From positions 1 through 64,000 of the forward strand of contig NZ_JAAAPN010000014.1 of NCBI RefSeq assembly GCF_009909205.1: a stretch of 64,000 bases of DNA, given 5' to 3'. Source of the DNA: Aquabacterium fontiphilum (GTDB taxonomy: Bacteria; Pseudomonadota; Gammaproteobacteria; Burkholderiales; Burkholderiaceae_C). The position numbers and the translations under genes were made by a program. The notes below the pieces were generated by a model. The model worked only from the letters and a program-made list of their open reading frames with translations. It searched no databases and was not told the DNA's origin. Numbering within the stretch: position 1 is the stretch's first letter; every line of letters begins with the position of its first letter. Shown piece after piece: positions 40,129 to 57,658 of the stretch.

Positions 40129-40905
40129 TCAGGCTGACAGCTTGCGACGCGACACCAGCGCGATGCCGATCAGGCCCAGCCCGAGCATGGCCGCTGGCGA
40201 CGCCTCGGGAATGGCCGCGGCCACATAGGGCGCGCTGCTGATGGGCGTGCGCAAAGCGCCATTGATGTCGATCGTGATGGTGCCGAAGTCCAGGCCCACA
40301 AGGGGCGCCTGCAAAACCCTGCTCAGGTTCAGGCCCGACGCAAACGTGGCCAACGCCGAATCCGTGAACGTCAGATTCGTCAGCTTCTGGTGCATGTTGA
40401 GCGTAAGGCCGTTGAGGCCGATCTTCAGATCGGTCGCGTCGAATGAGTACAGCGACGCACGCTTCTGGGTGACTCCGTTGGCGGTGATGTCGGCCATGAC
40501 GAGCGAGGTGTCATAGTCGATGAAGAAATTGGCCAGCGTGACGTTGCGTGTGCCACGAGAGATCAGCAGCGCCGAGCCGGACGCCTCGCCCCACTCGGGT
40601 GTCACCAGATTGGCAAACGGCCAGAACCCGACCGAGACATCCACCTTGGTCACAGGCAGATTGAACGCGGACAGCACGCTCCCGTCAGCCAACACGGTGC
40701 CTTTGGCGTTCGTCGCATTGCCCAGCGCACTCATGGTCACGCCGGCCGCGGCCATGGCGTCATAAGCCTCCATCGAGAGCGCGAACACCGAGTTGGCCTG
40801 CACCCAGGTCGTGTCCAGGGTCAGCGCCTGGGCCGAGGGGGCAGACAGAGAAGCCGCCAGCGCCACGGCGCCGGTCAACGATTGGGTCCAGGTGGTGGCT
40901 TTCAC
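40129..40905 (-). CDS. Secreted PEP-CTERM-type protein, founder of a four-member paralog family in this window
   Basis: 258 residues from a GTG at 40905 preceded by AAGGAG. A signal peptide ends near APSAQALTL. The C-terminus is a sorting signal: [10 protein letters not shown], a hydrophobic helix [12 protein letters not shown], then RRKLSA, i.e. a PEA variant of the PEP motif recognised by exosortase. The body shares with the proteins at 52607, 53520 and 54423 the ordered blocks [43 protein letters not shown] and a [11 protein letters not shown]-like block. The role is unknown; PEP-CTERM proteins are usually sorted to the cell surface with exopolysaccharide. No exosortase is in this window. 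Confidence 0.72.
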
Positions 40906-41191
40906 GGTACTGCTCCTTGCAAAACACGGCTGTGTTGACCAGATGATGCGCTGTTCTCGGCCAAAAACAGATGGTTTTTCACCCTCTTCTCTGACGTTTC
41001 TGTCAATCCCCGATGAATATGCACACCCCCTGAATAAGGGGTGGGGCGAACGTGCGCCAAACCCGCAAAACCGCGCCGTGCAGACTGCACATTGCAGGCA
41101 TGGCCGCCCCAGCTCCAAGGGGCGCGCAGGGTTCTGTTGCACACTCACGCCTTCGCGTACATGCGCGCCATACGCCCGCCGCCCACCTGCC

Positions 41192-51780: not shown

Positions 51781-52524
51781 TCAGCGGGCACCGCTGTTGA
51801 ACTGTCGCCGCGCTTCTTCCATCGCCTGCTCCAGGCGCGCGGGGGTGCGCTGGCTCGGGTCGGTCTGCGCCTGCCATTCCGCGTAAGCCGATGCCTGCAG
51901 CCGCTTCCATTCGGTTTCGCGCGATAGCTTGGCAATTGCCACATCATTTTCGAAATCCGGCACCAGCGTGGCCATCTTCATCTGCCATTGAACCAGCGCC
52001 TGATTGCGACGCGATTCATCGGTTTCCAGATCCGCAATCAACGCGGCCCCCATGAACGCGGCCTCCATCAGTGTGAACTCGCCCTGCTTGAGCCGGTCGG
52101 GCAACTGGTTCATCAGGTTCTCGGCCATCCGGCGACGCAATCGCGCGTCCTTCTCTGCGTCGATCGTCTGCCACTTCTCGAATCCCTGGTGATAGCGAAC
52201 GAAGCTGACCAGACGCAAGGCGTCCTCCTTTGTCTGCCCCTGCTTGGTCATGGCAGCCAACAAGGCCGCCCAGTCTTCCTCAGACACATCAGACGGTCGG
52301 CCGTCGCCCAGTGAGGGCGCGGACGCGACGGCCATGGCGCTGTCTTCGCCCACGCCCGCCTGAGGCCAAAGACTCGACGAGGCTTGCGGCGGTGCGACAT
52401 CACCGGACGCGTCGTCATCGCGCGAAGTGGACACCCACCATGCAGCTGCAGCCAAGGCAACGACCGCGGCACCCGCGACCGCGATGACAGGAAAACGACT
52501 GTTGGAGCGCTCGTACTTGATCAT
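51781..52524 (-). CDS. Membrane-anchored periplasmic protein of unknown function
   Basis: 247 residues from ATG 52524. A single N-terminal helix (FPVIAVAGAAVVALAAAAWWV) is followed by a mostly helical, charged periplasmic domain: DWAALLAAMTKQGQTKEDAL, RLRRRMAENLMNQLPDRLKQ, EFTLMEAAFMGAALIADLET, ESRRNQALVQWQMKM. The layout loosely recalls small lipase- or phospholipase-accessory proteins (PlcR-like), but I am not sure. The start is odd: a terminator-like hairpin and T-run end only a few bases before the ATG and no Shine-Dalgarno sequence is visible. Confidence 0.6.
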   Translation of the reverse strand: MIKYERSNSRFPVIAVAGAAVVALAAAAWWVSTSRDDDASGDVAPPQASSSLWPQAGVGEDSAMAVASAPSLGDGRPSDVSEEDWAALLAAMTKQGQTKEDALRLVSFVRYHQGFEKWQTIDAEKDARLRRRMAENLMNQLPDRLKQGEFTLMEAAFMGAALIADLETDESRRNQALVQWQMKMATLVPDFENDVAIAKLSRETEWKRLQASAYAEWQAQTDPSQRTPARLEQAMEEARRQFNSGAR

Positions 52525-52530
52525 GTCTGA

Positions 52531-52568
52531 ACAAAAGAAAAGCGGCGCCCTCCGAGGAGGGGCGCCGC
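52531..52568 (-). terminator. Intrinsic terminator after the 52607 gene, abutting the next start codon
   Basis: On the minus strand the stem GGCGCCCCTCC / GGAGGGCGCC (one bulged base, short loop) is followed by TTTTCTTTTG. It lies 38 bases after the stop of the secreted-protein gene at 52607. The T-run finishes 6 bases before the ATG at 52524. Confidence 0.8.
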
Positions 52569-52606
52569 CATCTGAAAGGCCGCGTGCTGCCGTGCAGCGC
52601 GCGTGA

Positions 52607-53278
52607 TCAGTTCGGAGCCGGCGTGTACAAGGTCGAAGACACCGGACGGCTGCGGAACTGGGCGGCAATGTGCTGTGTCAGCGAGCCAAAGCTGACTCCC
52701 GTGATAGCGCCGGTCTCGAAGCGACGCAGTTGCAGCGCGCTCGTGAATGCATCCAGCGCCTCGGGCGTCAGAATCAGCTCGTCGAGCGTCTCGTTCAACG
52801 TGATGCTCAGAGGGAAACGATACTTGAACGTCAACGGCTTGGCGACGTTGTACGTGTAAATGTTCATCTGGCGGATGGTCGCGCCGCCGAAGGGTGTCGT
52901 GTCCGCTTGAACACGCTTGGCTGCGTAGTTGATCGTGAAATTCGCCAGCGTAAAGCCCAGACGCTGCCCATTGCGCACACGCGAGAACTCCAGGGCGGAG
53001 CCGCGGGCGTCGCCCTTCTCGATGCTCAGGCCCGAGCCAATGGTGATGGTGGTGATGGGGAAGCTGAACGCGTAAGTCGTGCCGGCTGGCTGGGTGGTGT
53101 TGCCGAGGCCGACGACGGTGATGCCTTGCAAGGTAAAGGCATCTTGCGCTTCGATCGAGAACTGCTGAGTGGAAGACGCCACCAGCGCATTGGTGGGCAG
53201 GGTCAGCGCCGAAGCGGCCTGAACCATGGCCAGGCCAGCGGTGGCAAAGAATGCGGCGCGAACGTGGGAGAACTGCAT
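52607..53278 (-). CDS. Secreted paralog family member A (tandem, no PEP-CTERM tail)
   Basis: 223 residues. A signal peptide (FFATAGLAMVQAASA) is followed at once by LTLPTNALVASSTQQFSIEA, the shared N-terminal motif. Then come GLGNTTQPAGTTYAFSFPIT, DARGSALEFSRVRNGQRL, FTLANFTINYAAKRVQADTT, YTYNVAKPLTFKYRFPLSI, LDELILTPEALDAF and FRSRPVSSTLYTPAPN. The blocks are in the same order as in the genes at 53520 and 54423 and, more loosely, 40129. No anchor or sorting signal is present, so it is probably periplasmic or released. It is predicted rich in beta strand. The function is unknown. Confidence 0.7.
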   Translation of the reverse strand: MQFSHVRAAFFATAGLAMVQAASALTLPTNALVASSTQQFSIEAQDAFTLQGITVVGLGNTTQPAGTTYAFSFPITTITIGSGLSIEKGDARGSALEFSRVRNGQRLGFTLANFTINYAAKRVQADTTPFGGATIRQMNIYTYNVAKPLTFKYRFPLSITLNETLDELILTPEALDAFTSALQLRRFETGAITGVSFGSLTQHIAAQFRSRPVSSTLYTPAPN

Positions 53279-53347
53279 GATGGCTCCTGGAAAGCAGATG
53301 CGAACAACAAGTGATGACGCATGTTGCCAAAGAGCGCGAACGCGCCG

Positions 53348-53414
53348 CCCCCGCAGATCGGGGAGCGACGCGCATGCTGTACCGGAAAAAATTAACAAAC
53401 CCAGGGAAAACCAG
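53348..53414 (-). promoter_or_regulatory. Two-part conserved element upstream of family member A
   Basis: Distal part 53395-53414 (plus-strand ACAAACC-AGGGAAAAC-AG) and proximal palindromic part 53348-53364 (CCCCGC-GATC-GGGGAG type) recur upstream of member C at 55236-55255 and 55188-55207. Distal copies agree at 18 of 20 bases, and the separation between parts is 47 versus 48 bases. It probably marks the promoter/operator of these genes. Confidence 0.55.
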
Positions 53415-53466
53415 CAAACCCACCACCATCGGGTTACGAGGGTAAACCCTTGATTTGCGTTTTCAA

Positions 53467-53509
53467 GGGCAATCTACGGCCTACAGCCACCTGTTGGTGT
53501 AGATTGCCC
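53467..53509. repeat. Stem-loop after family member B
   Basis: GGGCAATCTAC (53467-53477) and GTAGATTGCCC (53499-53509) are perfect 11-base arms around 21 bases. On the minus strand it begins 11 bases after the stop of the gene at 53520, with a T-poor 3' flank. It is probably a transcript-end stem-loop. Confidence 0.6.
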
Positions 53510-53519
53510 GACGCCCAAC

Positions 53520-54212
53520 TCAGGGGGCCGGCGTGTAAGGCGTGGTCGACACCGGGCGGGCACGGAACTGCAAGAAGATCTCCTGAGTCAGGGTGCCAAA
53601 GGTGTCGACCGTATCCAGCGCGCCGATCTCGAACGCCTTAAGCTCCAGGCGCGAGATAAAGGCCTCGCGGGTCTGTTGCGTCAGAGTCAGCCTATCAAGC
53701 ACTTCACGCCCGGTCACCGTCAGCGGAAATTTGTACTTCAGACCCAGAGGCGTAGCCACGTTGAAGTTGTACAACGGCGCTTGGCGCACGGTGGTACCGC
53801 CCAGCGGTGTGATGTCGGCCAGCACCTGCTTGGTGTTGTAGTTGATCGTGAAGTTGGCCAGCGTGATGCCCACTTTCTTACCGACGCTCGGCGTACCGCG
53901 CGGCGCGATGCGGGAGATCTCGAGTGCGGAGCCCTTGGCATCGCCGCCAGCAATCTTGAAGTTGCTGATGGTGATGGTGGTGATGGGCAGTCGGAATGCA
54001 TCGTCGGTGCCCGCTACGGCGGTGGCGTTACCCAGCGGAATCACCTGCACACCGGCCACGGAGAACGAATCCATGGCTACGGCGGAGAACTTCTGGACCG
54101 AATCGGCCACCAGGAAGTTGGTGGGAATGGTCAAAGTGAGTGCCTGAGCGCTCAGCGATGCGGCGGCCAGGCCAGCGGCGAGAACGAAAGGGCGAAGTGC
54201 GGAAACCTGCAT
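53520..54212 (-). CDS. Secreted paralog family member B (tandem, no PEP-CTERM tail)
   Basis: 230 residues from ATG 54212, preceded by CAGGAG. The signal peptide (FVLAAGLAAASLSAQA) is followed by LTLTIPTNFLVADSVQKFS. Shared blocks are PLGNATAVAGTDDAFRLPIT, GGDAKGSALEISRIAPRGTP, GITLANFTINYNTKQVLADI, TPLGGTTVRQAPLYNFNVAT, KYKFPLTVTGREVLDRLTLT and RARPVSTTPYTPAP. It is closer to member C than to A. No catalytic motif, Cys or anchor is seen. The function is unknown; the gene is separated from both neighbours by more than 200 bases. Confidence 0.7.
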   Translation of the reverse strand: MQVSALRPFVLAAGLAAASLSAQALTLTIPTNFLVADSVQKFSAVAMDSFSVAGVQVIPLGNATAVAGTDDAFRLPITTITISNFKIAGGDAKGSALEISRIAPRGTPSVGKKVGITLANFTINYNTKQVLADITPLGGTTVRQAPLYNFNVATPLGLKYKFPLTVTGREVLDRLTLTQQTREAFISRLELKAFEIGALDTVDTFGTLTQEIFLQFRARPVSTTPYTPAP

Positions 54213-54322
54213 GGACAACTCCTGTTGAGATCAGTTTTAAGAACCAGTCGTCAGGCTTTACAACTTCGCCTGACTTGTGGTCATGATGACCGTCCGAACA
54301 CACATGCAGCAGTCGGTGTAAT

Positions 54323-54346
54323 GCCTGATCCCTGACGCGATCAGGC
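54323..54346. repeat. Stem-loop upstream of family member B
   Basis: GCCTGATC (54323-54330) and GATCAGGC (54339-54346) are perfect 8-base arms with an 8-base loop. On the minus strand it lies 77 bases after the member C stop and 111 bases before the member B start. It is one of three inverted repeats in this gap. Confidence 0.5.
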
Positions 54347-54351
54347 AAAAA

Positions 54352-54393
54352 CCCGGGTAAGCGATGACTGCTCAAACAACCGCGTTACCCGGG
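54352..54393. repeat. Widely spaced inverted repeat between members B and C
   Basis: CCCGGGTAA (54352-54360) and TTACCCGGG (54385-54393) are exact 9-base arms around 24 bases. A third small repeat, GGTTCC/GGAACC, follows at about 54393-54410. The repeats could form nested hairpins ending the member C transcript or bind a regulator of member B. Confidence 0.5.
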
Positions 54394-54422
54394 GTTCCAC
54401 CAGGGAACCGACGTTTTCCGGA

Positions 54423-55103
54423 TTACGGTTGATAGGGCGCGGTCGGCACCGACTTACGGAAGGTGACCTTGATGTCCTGGGTCAGCGAACCGAAGGTGGT
54501 GATGGCATCCAGCGCCCCGATCTCGAAGGCGCGCAGTTGCAGCGCGTCGATCTGGGCCTGACGCGACTCGGGGGTCAGCGTCAGTTGATCCAGCACTTCG
54601 CGACCCGTCACGGTCAGGGGGAACTTGTACTTGATGCCCAGGGGGGTGGCCACGTTGAAGTTGAACAGGCCCACCTTCTTGGCAGTCACGCCTCCGATCG
54701 GGGTGAAGTCGGCAAACACCTTCTTGGCGTTGTAGTCGATGGCAAAGTTAGCCAGCACAATGCCGACTTTCTGACCAGCAGACGGGGTACGCGGCGGAGC
54801 GATGCGGGCGATCTCCAGTGCCGAACCAGAGGCCTCGCCACCGGCGATGTGCAGCTTCGAGTCCACCGTGATCGAAGTGATCGGGAAGGCAAAAGAATCG
54901 GTGGTGTTCGCCACGGCCTTGGCATTGCCCAACGGCGAGATGGTGACGCCGGTCAGCTCGAAGCCGTCCATGGCTTCTTGAGAGAACTTCTGCACCGAAT
55001 CCGCCACCAGCGCATTGGTGGGGATGGTGAGCGCGCTGGCAGCGGCACTGGCAACCAGCAAGGCGGCGGCGATGGCGGTGCTACGGACGTTGAGAACTCG
55101 CAT
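54423..55103 (-). CDS. Secreted paralog family member C (tandem, no PEP-CTERM tail)
   Basis: 226 residues. The signal peptide (AIAAALLVASAAASA) is followed by LTIPTNALVADSVQKFSQEA. Shared blocks are [80 protein letters not shown] and LDQLTLTPESRQAQI. The GEASGSAL wording is also found in the PEP-CTERM protein at 40129, linking the groups. GGAG precedes the ATG. It lies 5'-most of the three tandem genes and carries the better copy of the upstream element. The function is unknown. Confidence 0.7.
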   Translation of the reverse strand: MRVLNVRSTAIAAALLVASAAASALTIPTNALVADSVQKFSQEAMDGFELTGVTISPLGNAKAVANTTDSFAFPITSITVDSKLHIAGGEASGSALEIARIAPPRTPSAGQKVGIVLANFAIDYNAKKVFADFTPIGGVTAKKVGLFNFNVATPLGIKYKFPLTVTGREVLDQLTLTPESRQAQIDALQLRAFEIGALDAITTFGSLTQDIKVTFRKSVPTAPYQP

Positions 55104-55187
55104 GAATCAGCTCCTTTGGAATTCGCCTTGCAACGCGCAAAGCGGTGTTGACGTGTGTTTAATGTTGCCCGCATCGCGTTCTGTGAA

Positions 55188-55255
55188 CCCCCCGCGGATC
55201 AGGGGGAGATGGGAGCAAAATGGGATCCCGCCACGACAAACCGAGGGAAAACTAG
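55188..55255 (-). promoter_or_regulatory. Two-part conserved element upstream of family member C
   Basis: Distal part 55236-55255 and proximal palindromic part 55188-55207 match those upstream of member A (see 53348-53414). The proximal part reads CCCCGCGGATCAGGGGGAG, i.e. a C-run, GATC and a G-run. The distance from the distal part to the ATG is 133 bases here and 117 bases in member A. Confidence 0.55.
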
Positions 55256-55294
55256 GAACGGGTGATTCCCCAAGGGGATCCGGGATACCACCAT

Positions 55295-55837
55295 ATGTCG
55301 CATTCACACCCCACCTTTCACCACATACGCCCCATGTGCGCGGCCGACTTGCGTGCCGTGATGACCATTCAGGCTGCGTGTTACCCACAGGAATACCTGG
55401 AGCCACCCGCATCGTTTGCGAACAAACTGATCAACGGCTCAACGTGCTGGGTCGCCGAAGCCGAGGGTCAAGTGGCGGCTTATCTGGTGGCACTGCCCAC
55501 GCACGAAACCGCACTGCCGGCGCTGCATGCGGACGATTGGCAGCCGCCGGCCCACCCCACGCTGCTCTACCTGCACGACATGGCCGTGGGGCCAGCACTG
55601 CGTGGCATGGGCGTGGCGCACAGCCTCCTGGACGCCGCCCGGCGCGCAGCGCGACAAAGGGGCCTAGCCGAGCTGGCGCTTGTGGCTGTACAGGGCTCCG
55701 TCCCGTTCTGGGCGCGCCATGGCTTCGTCGTCGACCCGGCACCAGCAGCATGGGTACGAGCCAAGCTGACCACCTTTGGCGGCGATGCCCGGTACATGAC
55801 CCAGCCGCTCATCCTTGAGGCGCATCAAGTGCCATGA
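55295..55837 (+). CDS. GNAT-family N-acetyltransferase
   Basis: 180 residues. The fold is shown by IRPMCAADLRAVMTIQAACY, the acetyl-CoA motif VGPALRGMGVAHSLLDAARR (Q/RxxGxG/A form) and VQGSVPFWARHGFVV. The substrate is unknown. The ATG at 55295 is preceded by AAGGGGATCC at a rather long distance. The frame is open to 55262, but those residues are not GNAT-like. It is divergent from the secreted-protein genes. Confidence 0.82.
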   Translation: MSHSHPTFHHIRPMCAADLRAVMTIQAACYPQEYLEPPASFANKLINGSTCWVAEAEGQVAAYLVALPTHETALPALHADDWQPPAHPTLLYLHDMAVGPALRGMGVAHSLLDAARRAARQRGLAELALVAVQGSVPFWARHGFVVDPAPAAWVRAKLTTFGGDARYMTQPLILEAHQVP

Positions 55838-55894
55838 CAACGCGCGGGGGACAATGTCCCACAAGATGTCGCGACATCGCTTCGAGGAATCTGC

Positions 55895-57658
55895 ATGCCG
55901 CATACCCGCGCCGCGAGCCTGAGCCCCTCCCCTGCAGCCGTGCCCGATTGGACACAATGGACCCAGGCACTGGATCGCCACGCCCATGCACTGGTCGGCC
56001 AGGCCGTCAACGGCATTTCGCCCATCCAGACCGGACTGGTCTACCTGGACTGGCTGTCCCACCTGTTGATCTCGCCAGGCAAGCAGCTGGATCTGATCAA
56101 GCAGGCAGCAGAAGACGCCGGTGGGGCTGCGCAGCGCCTGATGCAAGCTCGCGCCGGATGTTGCGACCCGTCTGCACCAGACGACCGGCGATTCCGCGCA
56201 CCCGAATGGCAGCAGTGGCCGTTCTCGGCCTATGCGCAGGCCTTTCACGTGTTGGAGCGCAGCTGGGACCGCGCCACCCGCGACGTGCCGGGGCTGACCC
56301 ATCGCCACGCGGACATCGCCCACTTCGCCGCGCGACAGTGGCTGGATGTGTTCAACCCCGCCAACATGCCCTGGCTCAACCCGGAGGTGCTGCGCGCGAC
56401 CGCACAGGAAGGCGGCGCCAATCTCGTGCGTGGCGCCATGAACTGGGCCGACGACCTGCAGCGCCTGATGCGCGGTCTGCCCCCTGCCGGGACCGAGGCC
56501 TACCGCGTGGGCGAGAACGTGGCGGTCACGCCGGGCAAGGTCGTGATGCGCAACGAGCTGATGGAGCTCATCCAATACAGCCCCGCCACCGAACAGGTTC
56601 ATGCCGAGCCGATCCTGATCGTGCCAGCGTGGATCATGAAGTACTACATCCTTGATCTGTCGCCGCACAACTCGCTGGTGCGTTACCTGGTGTCTCAGGG
56701 GCACACGGTCTTCATGATCTCGTGGAAGAACCCCACCGAAGAAGACCGCAACCGCACGCTCGATGACTACCGCAGGCTCGGGGTGATGGCCGCCCTGGAT
56801 GCGATCAACCGCATCGTGCCGGATCGCAAGGTACACGCCACCGGCTACTGCCTGGGTGGCACGTTGCTGATGATTGCTGCCGCCACGATGGGGCGCGACG
56901 GCGACGAGCGCCTGGCCTCGATGACGCTGTTTGCCGCGCAGGGCGACTTCACCGAAGCCGGCGAGTTGCTCATGTTCATCAACGAGAGCGAGGTCGAGCT
57001 GATCGAAGCCATGATGGCGCAGCAGGGTTACCTGAAGGGCTCGCAGATGGCGGGCACCTTCCAGCTCCTGCATGCCGATGACCTGATCTGGTCGCGCGCC
57101 ATGCGCCACTACCTGCTCGGCCAGCGCGATCAGCCCAATGACCTGATGGCCTGGAACGCCGACACGACCCGCATGCCCTACCGCATGCATTCTGAATACC
57201 TGCACCGGCTGTTCCTGCACAACGATCTGTCGCAGGGGCGCTATGAGGTCGACGGTGAGCCCATCTGGTTCACCGACATCCGCGTGCCCTGCTTTGCCGT
57301 GGGCACAGTGACCGACCATGTCGCGCCCTGGAAGTCGGTCTACAAGCTGCACCTGCTGCCGCTGGACCTGACTTTCGTGCTGACCAGCGGCGGACACAAT
57401 GCCGGCATCGTGAGCGAGCCCGGCCACAAGGGCCGCCATTTTCAGATCCACCATCGGCCGCCCACCGAGCCCTACAGCTCGCCCGATCGCTGGCAGGCCG
57501 AGACCCCCCACAGCGAGGGTTCTTGGTGGCCGTCCTGGCAGGCCTGGCTGGCTGAACATTCGTCGGGCCTCGTGCCACCGCCGCGCATGGGCCTGCCCGG
57601 CGGACGCCGCGGTGGCAAGCTGCCCGATGCGCCGGGCGACTACGTGCGCCAGTCCTGA
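55895..57658 (+). CDS. phaC: Class I poly(R)-hydroxyalkanoate synthase
   Basis: 587 residues, normal for a class I enzyme. The lipase-like box GYCLGG places the nucleophile Cys at 319. The catalytic Asp lies in AVGTVTDHVAPWKSVYKL and the His in TSGGHNAGIVSEPGHKGRHF. The N-terminal domain PLAWL-type region and the DLSPHNSLVRYLVSQGHTVF block are typical. It polymerises hydroxyacyl-CoA into storage granules. No phaA, phaB or phasin genes are adjacent, so monomer supply is encoded elsewhere. A terminator hairpin follows its stop. Confidence 0.93.
   Translation: MPHTRAASLSPSPAAVPDWTQWTQALDRHAHALVGQAVNGISPIQTGLVYLDWLSHLLISPGKQLDLIKQAAEDAGGAAQRLMQARAGCCDPSAPDDRRFRAPEWQQWPFSAYAQAFHVLERSWDRATRDVPGLTHRHADIAHFAARQWLDVFNPANMPWLNPEVLRATAQEGGANLVRGAMNWADDLQRLMRGLPPAGTEAYRVGENVAVTPGKVVMRNELMELIQYSPATEQVHAEPILIVPAWIMKYYILDLSPHNSLVRYLVSQGHTVFMISWKNPTEEDRNRTLDDYRRLGVMAALDAINRIVPDRKVHATGYCLGGTLLMIAAATMGRDGDERLASMTLFAAQGDFTEAGELLMFINESEVELIEAMMAQQGYLKGSQMAGTFQLLHADDLIWSRAMRHYLLGQRDQPNDLMAWNADTTRMPYRMHSEYLHRLFLHNDLSQGRYEVDGEPIWFTDIRVPCFAVGTVTDHVAPWKSVYKLHLLPLDLTFVLTSGGHNAGIVSEPGHKGRHFQIHHRPPTEPYSSPDRWQAETPHSEGSWWPSWQAWLAEHSSGLVPPPRMGLPGGRRGGKLPDAPGDYVRQS

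Follow-up and report, generated by a model that had tools for sequence, protein, structure and literature searches.

The window, a stretch of 64,000 nucleotides from a contig of Aquabacterium fontiphilum, carries a tandem array of three genes, A, B and C, all on the minus strand, whose products are paralogs (B and A are 64% and 52% identical to C, respectively). A further paralog, D, runs on into a PEP-CTERM tail at the point of the alignment where A, B and C stop (Table 1). The neighbouring gene upstream of C is divergent. Adjoining A is a gene for a small exported or membrane protein (51781-52524) that recurs close to genes of the family in 5 of 13 regions; its product matches a phospholipase C accessory protein weakly, at a score under the cut-off. 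Homologs of an OmpW-family outer-membrane gene (L088:5941-7320, identified by a Pfam match) adjoin family genes in 4 of the 13 regions. Short inverted repeats are found directly before the ribosome-binding sites of B (54250-54274), C (55124-55144) and A (53303-53328).

B and C have no match in Pfam at an E-value of 0.1, and searches of A, B and C against NCBIfam gave nothing above cut-off. When 25 members of the family were scanned with Pfam, the only strong match was to PEP-CTERM, in two members, and the HtaA domain (PF04213) was matched weakly in one of the 25 (E-value 0.037). The predicted model of C (pLDDT 86.6, pTM 0.79) retrieves the heme-binding domains of HtaA, HtaB, ChtA and HbpA in Foldseek (E-value 1.1e-5) and aligns to HtaA-type domains over 161 residues with a Z score of 13.9, an rmsd of 3.3 and 12% identity (VIA-align); the best structural match outside these four reaches a Z score of 6.9. 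C is predicted to adopt an HtaA-like fold, a likeness that by itself does not demonstrate heme binding; neither histidine nor tyrosine occurs among the invariant columns of the family alignment. OmpA, PsbO, YceI-like proteins, PagP and the other matches from a Z score of 6.9 down were set aside as common barrel arrangements rather than signs of kinship. The genes A to D belong to an orphan family of predicted HtaA-like fold in a betaproteobacterial genus, in which PEP-CTERM-bearing and anchor-less versions coexist.

Table 1. Genes of the family and upstream elements in the window
Feature	Position	Strand	Sequence	Remarks
Gene A	52607-53278	-		Exported protein, 223 aa, without PEP-CTERM; ATG at 53278
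Gene B	53520-54212	-		A/B/C family, 230 aa; ATG at 54212
Gene C	54423-55103	-		A/B/C family, 226 aa; predicted HtaA-like fold; ATG at 55103
Gene D	40129-40905			Paralog with PEP-CTERM
m2 of A, distal copy	53434-53453	-	TCAAGGGTTTACCCTCGTAA	36 bp from proximal copy
m2 of A, proximal copy	53398-53417	-		Covers most of the block 53395-53414
m1 of A	53345-53364	-	TCCCCGATCTGCGGGGGCGG	PWM 16.5
Core-promoter-like element of A	53314-53327	-	GCAACATGCGTCAT	37 bp past m1 start
m2 of B, distal copy	54385-54404	-	CCTGGTGGAACCCCGGGTAA	
m2 of B, proximal copy	54349-54368	-	GTCATCGCTTACCCGGGTTT	36 bp from distal copy; B has no m1
m2 of C, distal copy	55276-55295	-	TATGGTGGTATCCCGGATCC	37 bp from proximal copy
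m2 of C, proximal copy	55239-55258	-		Covers most of the block 55236-55255
m1 of C	55186-55205	-	CCCCTGATCCGCGGGGGGTT	PWM 21.3
Core-promoter-like element of C	55155-55168	-	GCAACATTAAACAC	37 bp past m1 start
m1 upstream of D	41022-41041	-	CCCCTTATTCAGGGGGTGTG	PWM 23.7; no m2 pair

The first-pass annotation had noticed two blocks shared by A and C, which lie upstream of these genes since both are on the minus strand. As it claimed, the distal blocks (53395-53414 and 55236-55255) are identical at 18 of 20 positions, the proximal block is present in both (53348-53364 in A, CCCCCGCAGATCGGGGA; 55188-55207 in C, CCCCCCGCGGATCAGGGGGA), and the two are offset, start to start, by 47 bases in A and 48 in C. 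Taken singly, the A/C distal pair is only modestly beyond chance (the best 20-mer match between A and C alone is 18; 40 shuffled pairs average 14.0 and do not go above 17). Within the genome, a 17-base version of the distal block matches perfectly at A and C only, with eight more matches at two to three mismatches (five in the control); the one match with two mismatches lies inside coding sequence, as judged by eye.

These blocks are best explained as parts of a larger cis-regulatory module of at least four elements. On the gene strand the order is m2, m2, m1, a core element, the ribosome-binding site and the ATG, and the consensus sequences are GnWWnCCCK for m2, CCCCyNATTCnnGGGGG for m1 and GCAnnATtaa for the core element. 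Of the two blocks, the distal one corresponds to the m2 copy nearer the gene, and the palindrome to m1; a second site of the distal type, further upstream of both A and C, had been overlooked. Gene B, which had been thought to lack the element, indeed has no m1 but does have the m2 pair. In both A and C, m1 stands at a distance of 53 from the proximal m2. An ungapped alignment of A and C anchored on m1 contains three in-register islands, m2 (17/20), m1 (14/18) and the core element (9/14), and the identity between them is at background, namely 9/33 in the spacer between m2 and m1 and 3/19 in the stretch after m1.

The same elements emerge from EM motif discovery in 50 non-redundant 250-bp upstream regions of homologs, taken from the fetched stretches. 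The strongest motif is m1 (CCCCccAtTCg.GGGGGG), with a log-likelihood ratio of 235.8 as compared to 84-89 in two shuffles, followed by m2 (c.t.ggG.tatCCCT.g.tt; 195.2, shuffles 87-89) and a downstream element containing CATtaa and CAcCAACA (154.1, shuffles 85-94); the ribosome-binding site is also recovered (104.8, shuffles 84-87). These ratios somewhat favour the real set, which was given 60 random starts as compared to 15 for the shuffled sets. In addition, 27 of 37 sequences have the 14-base element GCAnnATtaac.Ca at 37-39 bp past the m1 start (ratio 115.9; 59-66 in three shuffles). For stems immediately ahead of the ribosome-binding site, the family lies above local shuffles (z 6.2), as do control genes (z 4.4); because the control genes are enriched too, the 5'-leader stem-loop was kept out of the module.

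The sites are regularly spaced, a property that the motif model did not take into account. Among 34 m2 pairs, 14 are spaced at 36 bp and three at 37 bp (17 of 34 at 36-37 bp), and 13 of the 22 sequences with two m2 peaks have them 35-37 bp apart (permuted mean 1.8, maximum 8 in 10,000). The two copies are not alike, having mostly AA in one and TT in the other ahead of CCC, and need not be read by the same factor. Where the pair is spaced at 36 or 37 bp (n = 29), the proximal m2 stands 51-54 bp from m1 in 20 cases, 42-45 bp in eight and 31 bp in one, the distance classes being about one helical turn apart. The phasing of m2 relative to m1 gives similar values over periods of 9.5-11.5 bp (R 0.77-0.82), with no single period favoured and with rows that are not independent. 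Operator-like sites thus recur at a fixed pair spacing of 36-37 bp, as in a multi-site activator-dependent promoter.

In searches of genomes of the genus, of its family and order and of other families, the exported-protein family itself was found only in Aquabacterium. Of 37 genus genomes, 36 contain relatives of C, as compared to none of 24 genomes from other families. Profile searches detect the family in one of 300 genomes of the order (the own genome), in two of 150 at the family rank (the own genome and a genus-mate) and in 40 of 42 Aquabacterium genomes, the module being scored on fetched upstream regions rather than across all 42. Among four named records, three belong to Aquabacterium, and the fourth carries no more than the label 'Comamonadaceae bacterium'.

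Presence of the elements was scored with thresholds of at least 8 for m1, within -145 to -75, and at least 10 for the m2 pair. By these thresholds m1 is present in 37 and the m2 pair in 27 of the 50 training rows, with 3 and 0, respectively, of 62 other genes of the same regions as the control. The held-out rows (genomes G478-G481) contain m1 in 8 of 11 and the m2 pair in 9 of 11, although seven of the 11 come from G478, G479 and G481, which short tree branches mark as near-duplicates of genomes in the training set; in G480, the distinct one, each is present in two of four rows. For one G480 row (L115), the score at 36 bp is 12.4, lower than the 25.4 that it reaches at a spacing other than 36-37 bp. 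For grouping, the clades of a protein tree were adopted, because a split by regular expression or hydrophobicity rule for PEP-CTERM had misfiled rows. The tree comprises 115 rows; one clade of 80, with a support of 97/100, contains all 54 m2 pairs and 61 of the 67 m1 sites, and the 35 rows outside it have no m2 pair and six m1 sites. The module is incomplete in many members of the clade, in which 61 rows have m1, 54 have the m2 pair and nine have neither.

When both strands of 278,726 bases were scanned, 141 m1 sites were ranked by a composite score, and 25 of the best 26 stand before members of the family. Many of these are training sequences, and gene A is among them even though the ORF caller had missed it. 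The remaining site (L094:7473, minus strand), which combines a good m1 with m2, lies about 70 bases past the end of a family gene, and no family gene was found behind it. A triple pattern has 10 matches in 37 genomes of the genus, nine of them before family members (control, three). A pattern of two m2 sites exactly 36 bp apart occurs in the own genome at A, at B and in one other place (control, one), and if one mismatch is allowed the m1 pattern occurs in 11 places, including C and D (control, three). No wider regulon emerged in the own genome, as in the six that were scored of the nine m1 matches besides C and D, m2 never exceeds 4.3 in the 150 bases before m1.

The first-pass annotation had suggested looking for the blocks before other secreted or PEP-CTERM genes, an association that is mostly not borne out, as the counts of m1 and the m2 pair in PEP-CTERM-bearing or distant relatives are 5 of 32 and 0 of 32, respectively. 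m1 by itself, however, does precede D and a small number of further PEP-CTERM genes. Sites like m1 precede some distant PEP-CTERM paralogs (12.3 at -103 and 12.6 at -107, with uncertain gene starts), and one before the G003 ortholog of D scores 13.3 at -66, outside the tested interval. The orthologs of D in G003, G019 and G478 have no m1 within -145 to -75. Compared with m2, m1 may have the greater age or the wider use, and the module, at least its m2 pair, is apparently private to one genus-specific family.

Within what was searched, the elements and their spacings are conserved and are concentrated at the A/B/C family. The promoter module is real and larger than the first-pass annotation had recognised, and as a kind it is an ordinary multi-site bacterial promoter. 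The proposal of shared regulation is supported, since the blocks are not absent upstream of orthologs and the same elements, at the same spacing, precede homologs in other Aquabacterium genomes. This pattern suggests that the genes of the A/B/C family are switched together by a common regulator. m2 and m1 differ in sequence, so that either one factor or two may serve them.

The reading that we favour, at a probability of roughly 0.7, is a promoter that depends on an activator, has operator sites upstream and is for the most part private to the family; protein binding, activation rather than repression and the position of the promoter are inferred. m2 would be the upstream operator, in two copies at the fixed spacing of 36-37 bp, most likely occupied by a DNA-binding activator. 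m1 would be a promoter-proximal site about four or five helical turns below the m2 pair, where a second activator, or the same one, may sit beside the -35 region. The -10 region is presumed to lie at the conserved GCAnnATtaa, about 60 bp before the ATG in C and 45 bp in A, so that the centre of m1 falls some 35 bp ahead of this presumed -10 element. In class II activation, a position about 35 bp upstream of the -10 element is the usual site of an activator that touches RNA polymerase. The activators would jointly recruit RNA polymerase to a promoter that has neither consensus -35/-10 nor sigma-54 boxes, and A and C would be co-expressed, probably together with B through its m2 pair. No sigma-70 consensus (TTGACA-N16..18-TATAAT, at least 9 of 12) was found in 52400-55400, where shuffled sequences contain 1.0 on average.

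No regulator was recognised beside the family genes in 13 regions, in which 206 ORFs were clustered and 10 neighbours were scanned with Pfam; a single AraC-type regulator occurs among the neighbours, in one region (L095). The own genome has 17 matches to the LuxR-type (GerE) helix-turn-helix among other regulator candidates, and because they are so many no LuxR-type regulator was singled out.

The main rival to activation is repression, in which m1 would be a repressor operator beside or over the promoter, m2 a second repressor site or a looping site, and the genes normally off. The distance classes between m2 and m1, about one turn apart, fit DNA looping as well as they fit activation. If the promoter lies where we presume, however, m1 is upstream of the -35 region rather than over the -10 element or the start, and no consensus promoter that would need repressing was found there, so that we regard repression as unlikely.

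Also considered was the known control region of PEP-CTERM genes. The cis-regulatory site of these genes in Proteobacteria consists of a 17-nt motif 1, sometimes repeated, followed by a sigma-54 box (motif 2), and is linked to the PrsK-PrsR system (Haft et al. 2006, PMC1569441). The layout is alike, and the family does have PEP-CTERM relatives such as D. However, the sigma-54 -24/-12 box is not enriched in 71 upstream regions (mean best score 7.0, as compared to 7.05 in shuffled sequences; at least 8 in 14 of 71 as compared to 39 of 213), and the m2 pair is missing from the PEP-CTERM-bearing or distant relatives. PrsR (TIGR02915) has no match over the cut-off in the own genome, the completeness of which is 100 (best 366.5 bits, cut-off 502.6 bits), in a search that had no positive control, as no control genome scored above the cut-off either. 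None of the three defining features that were tested, namely the sigma-54 box, PrsR and the location at PEP-CTERM genes, was found for the Aquabacterium module, apart from m1 alone before D and some others, and its identity with the known region is very improbable.

The palindrome had been proposed as an operator, which in that form is not supported, as the arms of m1 vary independently and its centre, ATTC, is directional. In 37 m1 sites, the Watson-Crick counts at the six arm positions are 20, 35, 27, 32, 10 and 9, near or below the shuffled means of 21.4, 35.0, 26.0, 32.2, 10.4 and 14.0, and there is one compensated pair in the outer four arm positions. m1 is best described as an oriented DNA motif rather than a maintained palindrome. 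The same counts bear on the idea that the proximal block is an RNA hairpin, either a terminator or a structure of the 5' leader. The block can pair with itself in A and C, but pairing across the 37 sites is no higher than the shuffled range, a T run after the stem is not indicated, as the blocks are not among the four terminator-like sites found, and no Rfam family reaches its gathering threshold in 52000-56000. Moreover, because the upstream neighbour of C is divergent, there is no transcript to end at the block of C. A hairpin is, in our judgement, close to untenable. Equally hard to credit is that the blocks are remnants of duplication, with upstream DNA that has not yet diverged among the paralogs A, B and C, as only the islands are alike between A and C and the same elements precede homologs of about 40-60% identity in other species.

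The module is of wider interest in several ways. Two blocks in one window have led to a testable promoter grammar, which consists of the site order, the 36-37 bp pair and the preferred distances of m1; the m2 pair and m1 can serve as bait sequences in the search for the regulator, and the PEP-CTERM-bearing relatives without the m2 pair provide a built-in contrast set. Possibly, although we lean against it, the module defines a genus-private regulon, in which a branch of PEP-CTERM proteins of HtaA fold lost its anchor and gained a promoter of m2 pair and m1 with a regulator unrelated to PrsR and sigma-54; the order of loss and gain is one that we infer, the tree being unrooted. If true, anchoring and transcriptional control were replaced together in the anchor-less branch. 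Among the papers listed in the literature searches, none was found to describe this motif set or its association with a missing PEP-CTERM tail.

Three known systems bear comparison with the family and its promoter. At the protein level rather than in the DNA, C resembles the heme-binding domains of Corynebacterium HtaA, HtaB and ChtA in its predicted fold, which covers the domain, but it is only 12% identical to them and the PF04213 match is weak. The pepA gene of Aquincola tertiaricarbonis, a related bacterium, also encodes an exported protein and has an enhancer-like upstream sequence; its transcription is RpoN1-dependent and begins at a mapped start with TGGCAC/CTGCTT boxes (PMC9850573), whereas boxes of this type are not enriched in the Aquabacterium upstream regions. 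The PEP-CTERM site of Haft et al. (2006, PMC1569441) is closest in layout, with single genes for exported proteins that are preceded by long non-coding regions, and a possibly repeated upstream motif that is followed about 60 bp on by a promoter motif. The 17-nt enhancer motif given there ends in TTTACA, and the distal m2 of A reads TTTACC. Unlike that site, the Aquabacterium m2 pair stands, at its fixed 36-37 bp, before members of the family that have no PEP-CTERM.
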